Both the position numbers and the translations under genes were made by a program. A stretch of 24,671 nucleotides of DNA, from the IMG/VR virus record IMGVR_UViG_3300046007_000122, positions 1 through 24,671 of that record, one strand, 5' to 3'. The DNA is from a virus. The notes under the pieces were generated by a model. That model ran no database searches and was not told where the DNA came from. It saw only the letters and a list, made by a program, of their open reading frames with translations. Below, piece after piece: positions 1,880-4,126 of this stretch (the first letter of the stretch is position 1; each line of letters starts with the position of its first letter).

Positions 1880-2232
1880 TGGATAACTTGGAATACTATA
1901 GTGTAGAGTGGGACGGCCCAATTAGTATACGGCAGTCTGGGGTTCCAATCTGGACGAAGACCCCTATGCAAATCGTAAATGAATACCACAAAGAGAAATG
2001 GGAAAAGATGGAAAAAGACGCAGTGAATAGCCCCGCACACTACAACACAGGGGGTATTGAGTGCATTGACTATCTCAAGGACAACATGTCATGGGAAGGC
2101 TTTACAGGTTATCTGGAAGGCAACACCAAGAAGTACCTTCATCGTTGGCGCTACAAGTCAAAGCCTGTAGAAGACTTGAAGAAGGCTCGTTGGTATCTGG
2201 ACCGTCTAATCACAGAGTTGGACAGTGAATAA
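1879..2232 (+). CDS. DUF3310 family protein
   Basis: The protein has 117 residues. Its C-terminal half is a clear DUF3310 domain: NSPAHYNTGGIECIDYL (about residues 50-66), GFTGYLEGNTKKYLHRW, and DLKKARWYLDRLI at the end. DUF3310 is widespread in phages and sometimes carries nucleotide-kinase-like annotations, but its biochemical role is not established, so I assign none. The N-terminal 48 residues (MDNLEYYSVEWDGPISIRQ onward) are a non-conserved extension. The start is fixed by TGATG overlap with phoH, and the stop overlaps the next start (TAATG). Its place in an RNR/glutaredoxin/PhoH operon fits a role in DNA metabolism by context only. Confidence 0.88.
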   Translation: MDNLEYYSVEWDGPISIRQSGVPIWTKTPMQIVNEYHKEKWEKMEKDAVNSPAHYNTGGIECIDYLKDNMSWEGFTGYLEGNTKKYLHRWRYKSKPVEDLKKARWYLDRLITELDSE

Positions 2233-2435
2233 TGGTCACACTCTTATTCCTAGTCTGCAACACACTGTCTGGTGAGTGCTACCCAACCACATCAGGTTTG
2301 ATCTACAAGACAGATGAAGAGTGTCAGCAGAGTGCTGTAGAAATCATTGAGAGGGTCAAAGAAGACCAACGTCTAGGGTTGTCCCCACCAGAAGAAGCCC
2401 TCTATGTCTGCTACAACTGGGGTGATCCAACATGA
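2232..2435 (+). CDS. Small cysteine-containing phage protein (67 aa), unknown
   Basis: This 67-residue ORF begins by TAATG overlap with the DUF3310 gene. It has a short hydrophobic N-terminus (MVTLLFLVCN) and four cysteines, near residues 9, 16, 31 and 60. The middle (KTDEECQQSAVEIIERVKE) is probably helical. The spacing resembles small phage proteins of the form CN...GECY...ECQ...VCYNW that recur in phage genomes, but I cannot name a family. The cysteines could form disulfides if the protein is exported, or bind a metal. The stop codon shares bases with the start of the next tiny ORF (ATGA). Confidence 0.7.
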   Translation: MVTLLFLVCNTLSGECYPTTSGLIYKTDEECQQSAVEIIERVKEDQRLGLSPPEEALYVCYNWGDPT

Positions 2436-2500
2436 TCGAAGCCCTGATCTTCTTAGCAGTCGTTGTACTTGTCGTCTGGTACTGCAACGAAGCCGATTAG
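2432..2500 (+). CDS. Possible 22-aa membrane micropeptide
   Basis: This is a very short ORF starting by ATGA overlap with the preceding stop. The peptide is MIEALIFLAVVVLVVWYCN followed by EAD, so nearly all of it is one hydrophobic helix long enough to cross a membrane. It is the last frame before the operon terminator. The hydrophobic pattern and start/stop coupling favour a real micropeptide, but its size means chance cannot be excluded. There is only a weak GGGGTG stretch as ribosome binding site. Confidence 0.4.
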   Translation: MIEALIFLAVVVLVVWYCNEAD

Positions 2501-2508
2501 AAATGAAA

Positions 2509-2544
2509 AAACCCCGTTCCCGGTTAATTCCGAGAGCGGGGTTT
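2509..2544. terminator. Bidirectional rho-independent terminator between convergent operons
   Basis: Left arm AAACCCCGTTCCCGG (2509-2523), loop TTAATT, right arm CCGAGAGCGGGGTTT (2530-2544). The arms pair over 15 positions with one U.G wobble and one C-A mismatch. Reading the - strand, the stem is followed by a run of six T (complement of 2506-2511), a good terminator for the late operon. Reading the + strand, it is followed by TTTCTTTA, a weaker but acceptable U-tract for the RNR operon. It sits exactly between the last + strand gene and the last - strand gene. Confidence 0.88.
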
Positions 2545-2571: not shown

Positions 2572-2814
2572 TTAAGAGTGCTGATCTGGGTCGCGTTTAT
2601 ACAATTCGATAATGTCGCGTTTCACTTCTTTAAGATCAGTCTTAATCTCGTTCATTATCTCACGGTCTTCTTGACGACGAACATCACGAGAACGTATTTC
2701 AGCCTGCATCAAAGCAATCTGTTTCTCGTTTGTCAAGACCCTACGGATTAGCCAAGTAATACCAGAGAAGATAGCTGCCACGGCACTTCCTATGATGTAC
2801 TCTAGATAATTCAT
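2572..2814 (-). CDS. Small one-TM protein of the lysis cassette, candidate holin
   Basis: The 80-residue protein has an N-terminal hydrophobic segment (about residues 5-24, EYIIGSAVAAIFSGITWLI), then RR, then a highly charged helix likely to be a coiled coil (QIALMQAEIRSRDVRRQED and LKEVKRDIIELYKRD). It is the last gene of the late operon and overlaps the preceding lipoprotein gene by ATGA. By context it belongs to lysis. The basic residues just after the TM segment suggest a cytoplasmic C-terminus, which would fit a small holin or holin regulator better than an inner-membrane spanin. The rival reading, an i-spanin with periplasmic coiled coil, cannot be ruled out. I see no specific family match. 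Confidence 0.6.
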   Translation of the reverse strand: MNYLEYIIGSAVAAIFSGITWLIRRVLTNEKQIALMQAEIRSRDVRRQEDREIMNEIKTDLKEVKRDIIELYKRDPDQHS

Positions 2815-3134
2815 TTCTTAAATAGCCCTCGTATCCATCTTGCGATTTCGTTGGGGGATGGTAGTAACCACCCAAGGATCAGAAGGACTAGTATCCACAT
2901 CGGGGTTTGCTGGATATTCACTTCTTCGATATTTTCTGCTTCTACAGGGCTAGTCTTCTGGATAATGTCCCGACCAGCCTCTGTCTTTTGTTGTACAGCT
3001 ACAGCCTGTTGTGTGTTCTCTTTACCAGCTTGCACATTGGCTGCGACATTAGGCCCACCACCCGTCAAGAGGCTCAAGGGGCCTTTACCACAACCAGATA
3101 AAGCTAGGAGAGCCACCAAGAGCAAGACACGCAT
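2811..3134 (-). CDS. Lipoprotein with C-terminal TM segment, candidate unimolecular spanin
   Basis: The 107-residue protein starts with a classical lipoprotein signal: MRVLLLVALLALSGCG, lipobox LSGC with Cys at residue 15 and Gly at +2, so outer-membrane sorting is expected. The middle is polar (NVAANVQAGKENTQQAVAVQ). The C-terminus has one strong transmembrane segment, about residues 79-93 (MWILVLLILGWLLPS), followed by basic residues. A lipid anchor in the outer membrane plus a C-terminal anchor in the inner membrane is the topology of u-spanins such as T1 gp11, which disrupt the outer membrane at the end of lysis. The LLTGGGPNVAANVQAGK stretch is one I have seen in other environmental phages. 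It lies one base after the lysozyme stop and overlaps the next gene by ATGA. Confidence 0.68.
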   Translation of the reverse strand: MRVLLLVALLALSGCGKGPLSLLTGGGPNVAANVQAGKENTQQAVAVQQKTEAGRDIIQKTSPVEAENIEEVNIQQTPMWILVLLILGWLLPSPNEIARWIRGLFKK

Positions 3135-3135
3135 A

Positions 3136-3609
3136 TCACAGCCCCTTCTTACAGAGTGTGACCTTGCTGTCAGCCCTACGGTTCTCTAGACCTTTCACAG
3201 TCCTACCACCAGCCTTAACCCACTTTCCCAGTTCATCACAGGCTTCTTTGAACTTACCTTGATTAGCTAGACGCATCATCGTAGACTTACAGACAGCCCC
3301 AGTGCCAGCGTTATAGGCCAGTTCCAGCATAGAGGCTTGTACACCCACAGGGATGTTAGGGTTAGTCATGCAAGGCTCTAGTTTAGCATAGAACTCTGCC
3401 ACACCCTTTTCAAGCATGGCAAAGCACTGTTCTTTGGTGTAGGTATCACCCATCTTAACCCCACGAGTTTCCCCGTAGCAGACAGTAGGGATACCCACAA
3501 TGTCCTTATAGGCTTTAGTCTCTAGCCCTTCCCATTTAGCAATGAAAGGGGTTGCTGACACGATAACAGCGGCTGCAACTGCACCAGTGACCTTCTTCCT
3601 TAAAGACAT
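3136..3609 (-). CDS. Endolysin, GH24 lysozyme with N-terminal signal-anchor (SAR-like)
   Basis: This 157-residue muramidase matches the T4/P21 lysozyme family (glycoside hydrolase 24). The catalytic triad has canonical E-x8-D-x5-T spacing: E27 (KWEG), D36 (YKDIVG), T42 (IPTVCYG). Further family features are LELAYNAGTGAVCKSTMM and a C-terminal GLENRR motif. Residues 7-24 (VTGAVAAAVIVSATPFIA) are hydrophobic but rich in Ala, Gly, Ser and Thr. This is typical of SAR domains, which export the enzyme through Sec and later release it from the membrane. Several cysteines, including C44 two residues after T42, could control activity by disulfide exchange. An AAGGAT site precedes the ATG. It is followed by the spanin- and holin-like genes. 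Confidence 0.92.
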   Translation of the reverse strand: MSLRKKVTGAVAAAVIVSATPFIAKWEGLETKAYKDIVGIPTVCYGETRGVKMGDTYTKEQCFAMLEKGVAEFYAKLEPCMTNPNIPVGVQASMLELAYNAGTGAVCKSTMMRLANQGKFKEACDELGKWVKAGGRTVKGLENRRADSKVTLCKKGL

Positions 3610-3625: not shown

Positions 3626-4126
3626 TTAGACAGGTTTAGCGGGCCAGACTACATTGTGTGGGAAACCTTCCTGAGAAGTTATATCCCGAAGAGCCTGACG
3701 ATACTCAGCCCAAGCATCTTGATCTACAGGGGCATCAATCACTTGGGTCCAATCACTTTCAGAAAGCAACTTGTTACGTTGAGTGCGAACAATTTTAGAG
3801 GCTTCGTTATCAAGACCAGCTTGATAGGTAGCTTCTTGATCTGCTTTTGAGTGGATTTCGCCAGCTTCATCAATGTAGTTCGAGAACATGTCTACAACAG
3901 ACCAACCTTGAACCCAGTTGCCTTTAGCATCCTGAACCACACCATTACGAACAACAGTCTGGTACTTACCAGCTTCGGGCTTAGGGGTTTCAAAGACAGC
4001 CTCAAGGTTCAAGCCCTCAAGAGTTGTTTGCGCCCAAACACGGGGGAGAGAGACATTGCTAAAATGCTGACGCCACTCTCCTTGTGTCTTAACTTCCTCA
4101 GTTTCTTTATGTCTATATTCGCCCAC
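3626..4126 (-). CDS. Tail fiber assembly chaperone-like protein
   Basis: The 166-residue protein has a C-terminal domain typical of phage tail assembly chaperones (the Phage_tail_APC type): a charged helix RTQRNKLLSESDWTQ (about residue 115), then the sequence D-x-P...WAEYRQALRDI, and a terminal GFPHNVVWPAKP. Such proteins sit next to the fiber gene they help fold or attach, and here the 669-residue fiber gene lies directly upstream. The start codon is GTG at 4126, supported by AAGGAG eight bases before it. The N-terminal half (LPRVWAQTTLEGLNLEAVFE) looks like the accessory region of such chaperones and may be what the specific fiber recognises. Confidence 0.82.
   Translation of the reverse strand: MGEYRHKETEEVKTQGEWRQHFSNVSLPRVWAQTTLEGLNLEAVFETPKPEAGKYQTVVRNGVVQDAKGNWVQGWSVVDMFSNYIDEAGEIHSKADQEATYQAGLDNEASKIVRTQRNKLLSESDWTQVIDAPVDQDAWAEYRQALRDITSQEGFPHNVVWPAKPV

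Follow-up and report, generated by a model that had tools for sequence, protein, structure and literature searches.

The window analyzed here, that is the whole stretch of 24,671 nucleotides of the IMG/VR virus record IMGVR_UViG_3300046007_000122, contains a minus-strand cassette in which a tail-fibre-assembly gene (3626-4126) is followed by an endolysin gene, a putative u-spanin gene and a gene encoding a protein of 80 aa (Table 1). The spanin gene thus lies, as the original prediction had it, between a SAR-like lysozyme and a small protein with one TM segment. The endolysin stop codon and the spanin start codon are separated by 1 nt, and the spanin stop codon overlaps the start codon of the 80-aa protein gene as ATGA. 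The cassette faces plus-strand genes, such as the one encoding a DUF3310 protein (1879-2232), and a possible bidirectional terminator was noticed between the converging genes. The stem found there by program is smaller (2526-2543), and the three terminator-like sites found do not exceed the number in shuffled sequences (mean 2.2, sd 1.5).

Table 1. Features of the putative lysis cassette and of the predicted spanin (positions in the window; residues counted from the ATG)
Feature	Position	Strand	Basis or remark
Putative u-spanin gene	2811..3134	-	107 aa, stop included
Lipobox LSGC, residues 12-15, with predicted lipidated Cys15	3090..3101	-	Sequence
Anchor-proximal motif LLTGGGPNVAANVQAGK, residues 22-38	3021..3071	-	Most conserved block of the family alignment
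Juxtamembrane segment VEAENIEEVNI, residues 64-74	2913..2945	-	hhalign alignment and residue comparison by eye
C-terminal TM segment, residues 79-93, end adjoining the conserved PSP	2856..2900	-	Hydropathy; AF2 helix 79-90
Basic C-terminal tail, residues 94-107, predicted cytoplasmic helix	2814..2855	-	AF2 helix 94-105; charge pattern
Endolysin, phage lysozyme PF00959 (1.4e-36)	3136..3609	-	42% identical to T1 endolysin gp12
SAR-like N-terminal segment VTGAVAAAVIVSATPFI of the endolysin	3541..3591	-	Aligned with the T1 endolysin N-terminus
E-x8-D-x5-T pattern of the endolysin	3484..3531	-	Sequence
80-aa protein, one N-terminal TM segment and charged tail, predicted N-out/C-in	2572..2814	-	Flanking charges
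Hairpin AAACCCCG...CGGGGTTT, possible bidirectional terminator	2509..2544	.	By eye

The 10 ORFs scanned against PHROG gave matches to portal, major head, tail terminator and tape-measure proteins and none to a sheath protein, which is consistent with the siphovirus originally proposed. The portal and its counterpart in Roseobacter phage CRP-6 share 66.7% identity. Together with three matches in roseobacter-type bacterial genomes (see below), this makes a roseobacter-type bacterium the probable host.

The spanin gene starts with ATG, preceded by the Shine-Dalgarno-like sequence AAGAAGGGGC. Its lipobox reads as first described, with Cys15 followed by Gly16 at position +2, and the strong TM segment announced at about residues 79-93 was found as well: the most hydrophobic 15-mer starts at residue 77 (measured on the identical L001 protein, with the ATG numbering). 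The protein has no periplasmic Cys, and the Pfam search with it gave no family match. The lipobox Cys is kept in all 62 aligned representatives, a set made of the window and 61 loci that were picked for presence of the lipobox, for their start and for limited mutual identity. The conserved motif LLTGGGPNVAANVQAGK, thought to occupy the central part of the protein, is indeed present and forms the best conserved block of the family, but it lies directly behind the lipid anchor. Among the 109 ORFs of at least 60 aa of the window, this is the only one to combine a strict lipobox with a C-terminal TM segment; nine of the 4343 ORFs of at least 60 aa of the homologous loci have both without the QxG motif. 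Furthermore, in comparisons with nine selected close homologues over the C-terminal 87 codons (two of which, L017 and L018, give identical values), dN ranges from 0.018 to 0.123 and dS from 0.357 to 1.640. Since dN is far below dS in all nine pairs, the gene encodes a protein under purifying selection.

A scan of viral contigs with the window protein yielded 308 candidate stretches with 303 relatives, and a second one with the distant 'spanin2' of T5S1 yielded 96 candidate stretches with 90 relatives. The best 80 of the 303 and the best 80 of the 90 constitute 160 loci (L053 and L133 being on the same contig). Two of them (L029 and L051) are cut at their 3' end, leaving 158 3'-complete loci that encode 122 distinct mature proteins. 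Homologues lacking either membrane anchor would have refuted the original prediction, and this is not what was observed. In this sample, which favours full-length relatives, the lipobox is present in 156 of the 158 loci according to a permissive sequence pattern, the exceptions being L138, cut at its 5' end, and L114, which has SPSC. The C-terminal TM segment is present in 157, L127 being slightly below the hydropathy cut (1.49), and also occurs in all 10 loci in which tblastn aligned no more than the N-terminal portion of the query (L131, L134, L143, L144, L146, L147, L148, L155, L159 and L172). The net charge rises across the TM segment in 157 of the 158 loci, so that the C-terminus is predicted to be cytoplasmic. 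A second Cys before the TM segment occurs in none of the 156 loci in which the lipidated Cys was assigned, and 59 to 81 residues (median 65) separate the two anchors. Position +2 is occupied by Gly or Ser in 143 of the 158 loci; to our knowledge, the rules of lipoprotein sorting have been little tested in Rhodobacterales. Three loci (L095, L098 and L115) have TM variants without the GWLLPSP form (e.g. VGWVTDTP or LFMDSP) and keep the Pro after the TM segment.

Scanning bacterial genome contigs gave three loci from 30 candidate stretches (L173 to L175). They are located on roseobacter-type contigs (Roseobacter, Roseovarius and Rhodobacteraceae) and probably belong to prophages. Viral-contig scans with the relative from DSS3_VP1 and with T1 gp11 gave one locus, 100% identical, and eight T1-like loci only (76-100% identity), respectively.

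The window endolysin aligns with T1 gp12 from its first residue, and Gly, Ala, Ser and Thr make up a 0.53 fraction of the 17 residues of the N-terminal segment in both proteins, suggesting that it may be exported as a SAR-like protein. Using eight seed proteins, two of them from these loci, an endolysin-like ORF was found at most 1.5 kb from the spanin gene, upstream or downstream, in 138 of the 160 loci; none was found with these seeds in the other 22, several of which are of little length or truncated where the contig stops. Several kinds of seeds were matched, indicating exchangeable endolysin types. Apart from the window lysozyme and the proteins annotated in their records, these seeds are presumably lysozyme-like, GH108-like, M15-like and amidase-like, as judged from the appearance of their sequences. 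The 80-aa protein has no match to a named family in the PHROG, Pfam and NCBIfam scans; as it is the sole holin candidate seen in the cassette, we would guess that it is a putative holin. When the one best same-strand ORF per locus is considered, a TM neighbour of this type is found only among L001-L042, while L079 and the sioviruses have a different one. Since both the endolysin type and the TM neighbour vary, the spanin candidate is not tied to a single partner gene, in keeping with a u-spanin.

Other small ORFs were noticed around the cassette. The tiny ORF MIEALIFLAVVVLVVWYCNEAD (2432-2500, plus strand) encodes little more than a TM segment, and similar peptides are encoded on the minus strand in 17 of the 45 loci L001-L045. 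A Cys-containing ORF of 67 aa with a hydrophobic start (2232-2435, plus strand) was retrieved in three of these 45 loci by a narrow text pattern. Moreover, a gene for a small protein ending with KMSAAYWA(D/A)KVKW often lies next to the spanin gene, on its downstream side (e.g. in L116, L135 and L145).

Because the lipobox, the TM segment and the charge pattern are kept, and in view of the endolysin context, the identity with SIO1 gp22, the match to the NCBIfam spanin2_3 family and the T1-like profile, we consider it highly probable that 2811-3134 encodes a u-spanin. Predicted topology, cassette and homologues all fit this assignment, and the follow-up therefore bears out a reading that had been made from the raw sequence. 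Speaking against it are the short distance between the two anchors, the low-confidence structure model without periplasmic strands, a score under the spanin2_3 cut-off (see below for all three), the SPSC of L114 and the Asp at position +2 of L030.

Three other readings were weighed. The first would have the protein act as o-spanin in a two-component system, the 80-aa protein being its i-spanin. The two genes are adjacent and overlapping, the 80-aa protein has an N-terminal TM segment and a charged tail, and for its counterpart in the siovirus ICBM1 (gp33), the charges predict a periplasmic tail and weak matches to Rz-like spanin PHROGs were obtained (0.03 and 0.075). However, an o-spanin would not need the C-terminal TM segment kept in nearly all homologues, a periplasmic Cys is absent from all those in which it was looked for, the 80-aa-type neighbour is confined to L001-L042 when one best same-strand ORF per locus is considered, and its tail is predicted to be cytoplasmic in 14 of 14 relatives, where an i-spanin would have a periplasmic coiled coil. 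We therefore regard such a pair as improbable. An envelope lipoprotein unrelated to lysis, for instance one involved in superinfection exclusion, is more improbable still. It would account for the lipoprotein signal and for a weak match of the distant DSS3_VP1 relative to a Cor PHROG (0.0073, weaker for 9A at 0.06), but neither for the conserved TM segment, nor for the similarity to T1 gp11, nor for the frequent neighbourhood of endolysins of exchangeable types. Finally, a lysis regulator or antiholin held wholly in the inner membrane by its lipid and its TM segment is the least credible of the three. In its favour are the little-tested sorting rules of Rhodobacterales mentioned above and the Asp at position +2 of one homologue (L030); against it, Gly or Ser occupies this position in most loci, and no antiholin family was matched in the PHROG and NCBIfam scans.

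For the u-spanin, the following mechanism can be proposed. Signal peptidase II would cut ahead of Cys15, which would then be lipidated, and Gly16 would permit transfer to the outer membrane by the Lol system, while the C-terminal TM segment would remain in the inner membrane with its basic tail in the cytoplasm. From Cys15 to the TM segment, about 62 residues would pass, extended, through the peptidoglycan. The periplasm is about 20 nm wide. Fully extended, these residues would span about 22 nm, which would be just enough and leave little slack; given the distances of 59 to 81 residues found in the family, such proteins must stretch almost fully to cross it. This length fits an extended tether. 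Degradation of the wall by the SAR-like endolysin would free the tethers, allowing them to cluster and collapse, and this collapse would fuse the inner and outer membranes, thereby eliminating the last barrier to lysis. Lipidation, localisation, membrane fusion and lysis function are all deduced for this protein. The AF2 model, computed from 62 sequences (mean pLDDT 64.3), contains the TM helix and the further helix of the tail. It has no confident periplasmic fold: pLDDT is below 50 at residues 42-50 and 52-57, and the periplasmic part, at low pLDDT, contains no strands.

The protein belongs to a known kind and is mostly ordinary, so that its novelty is low. Kongari et al. (2018, PMC6139136) sorted u-spanins into 13 families at 40% identity, one of which, in their Table 5, is a group of two consisting of SIO1 and P12053L, and they report all 58 u-spanins as devoid of periplasmic Cys. 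The same authors state that neither physiology nor biochemistry had yielded data on the mode of action of u-spanins. An N-terminal lipoprotein signal and a C-terminal TM segment have also been described for ICBM1 and ICBM2 in the cobavirus paper (PMC6775973), which states that BLAST retrieved relatives from roseophages and Rhodobacteraceae only, apart from one in an E. coli phage whose similarity is very low. In our tblastn search of 50,697 phage records, 17 were matched; the gene is annotated as spanin in four of them, as hypothetical or gp22 in eight, and is unannotated in five. The NCBIfam family NF037952 (spanin2_3) matches all 62 representatives at an E-value of 0.001 or better, the window protein doing so over residues 6-94 (4.6e-21) with 74.7-74.8 bits, below the curated cut-off of 80 bits. 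The expectation that the finding could name a large unannotated group thus holds in part: 13 of the 17 records lack a spanin label and the family of the window protein, PHROG_30566, is labelled 'unknown function', but the name already exists in the other records, in NF037952 and in both papers. Hence, PHROG_30566 could be labelled u-spanin, and so probably could PHROG_36050 and perhaps PHROG_16830, which are both of 'unknown function' too.

The closest known system is that of the cobaviruses. SIO1 gp22 is 50.0% identical to the window protein over 81% of the query (tblastn), which exceeds the 40% identity over 40% of the length that defines the SIO1/P12053L group. SIO1 gp22, the ICBM1 spanin and the window protein have in common the lipobox, the GGGPNVAANVQAG motif, a TM segment with GW(L/V)LPSP and a position in the lysis region. 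In contrast, SIO1 and ICBM1 have podoviral virions whereas the window derives from a long-tailed phage, and the cobavirus endolysins are reported without membrane anchors (PMC6775973), unlike the SAR-like endolysin found here.

A more remote likeness links the family to T1 gp11, the prototype u-spanin (PHROG_1804), which complements an RzRz1 defect (PMC6139136). According to the same paper, u-spanins of the T1 family accompany, with two exceptions, a pinholin and a SAR endolysin. T1 gp11 has the same architecture as the window protein, and its SAR endolysin partner is the T1 protein resembling the window endolysin. DVTAQVGAEN, close to the anchor of T1 gp11, and VNAESITV, which precedes its TM segment, are similar to segments of the window family; VEAENIEEVNI in the window protein resembles the V-x-A-(D/E)-x-(I/V) stretch found in T1-type u-spanins. 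However, 89 residues separate Cys and TM segment in T1 gp11 against 62 in the window protein (70-97 in eight T1-family proteins), and the structure prediction published for T1 gp11 is beta-rich (PMC6139136), in contrast with the strandless AF2 model of the window protein.

With signal peptides removed and E-values counted for one comparison rather than for a database, hhalign aligned the family (62 sequences) with the eight T1-family proteins over 76 columns (probability 93.3, score 44.7, 25% identities, below the 40%/40% criterion of the T1 family). None of 200 column shuffles (maximum 18.0) and none of 200 local shuffles (maximum 35.9) reached this score. When the alignment was split, one of 200 local shuffles reached the score of the N-terminal half and none that of the C-terminal half, which includes the TM segment. 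Taken singly, three of the eight T1-family sequences (T1, vojen and PM16) were clear of all 60 shuffles, the others being equalled by 43 (EB49), 6 (CPP1m), 5 (PS3), 3 (PK7R) and 1 (pSf1), so that, for individual sequences, the link to T1 is weak. The full-length window protein matches the PHROG_1804 HMM at 4.3e-7, a score inflated by the signal peptide, its mature part doing so at 0.0044 and the reversed mature protein, used as a control, matching nothing. No match to PHROG_1804 was found at E 0.1 for the relatives L083, L089 and L173, nor was any found for T1 gp11 with PHROG_30566 at E 1 or with spanin2_3 at E 0.1; PM16 (1.9e-5) and 9A (2.2e-4) match the latter. PHROG_1804 had also been considered as a sign that the family originated from o-spanins; this was rejected, as it contains the T1 u-spanin itself (T1 gp11, 9.7e-45) and thus provides no link between u- and o-spanins.

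Similarly, the three proteins of the Colwellia phage 9A group (9A belonging to PHROG_36050) align with the family with a probability of 93.9, their score being reached by none of 200 shuffles (maximum 19.4 for column and 21.0 for local shuffles). The third member, VP41s3, is not above shuffles when taken alone (4 of 60), and 9A without its signal peptide matches neither PHROG_30566 nor PHROG_1804. Vibrio phage VpV262 encodes a protein, ORFB (L197, 44422-44835, minus strand), annotated as holin-like from two TM predictions, which combines a TSGC lipobox with a C-terminal TM segment and is probably the VpV262 u-spanin listed by Kongari et al. Its juxtamembrane TLTINEGVPFWW is similar to that of the family (hhalign probability 33.5, reached by 0 of 60 shuffles). 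By contrast, the u-spanin of Pseudomonas phage PB1, identified by its AWAC lipobox and a C-terminal hydrophobic stretch, has only the architecture in common with the family, without similarity detectable by hhalign (probability 0.1, 54 of 60 shuffles scoring as high). Scores at the level of chance were also obtained for the T1 holin and for both of the neighbouring TM proteins.

T1, SIO1/P12053L, 9A and VpV262 stand as separate families in Table 5 of Kongari et al. (PMC6139136). In the part of the literature on u-spanins and roseophage spanins available to us, neither a link of the family to T1 gp11 and 9A nor the motif string GGGPNVAAN was found. From the profile comparisons, we lean towards the view that T1, SIO1/P12053L, 9A and perhaps VpV262/CW02 form one old superfamily, the PB1 u-spanin having a separate origin. 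Its marks, proposed with the same reserve, would be (P/G)-x-(V/I)-x-A-(N)-x-Q-x-G-(K/A)-E-N near the lipid anchor and the juxtamembrane V-x-A-(D/E)-x-(I/V). If this is true, the function proven for T1 gp11 would carry over to the marine phages and the two conserved segments would be working parts of the fusogen. Hence, provided that the T1 link holds, these segments narrow down the residues worth mutating in T1 gp11, the u-spanin for which a working assay exists.
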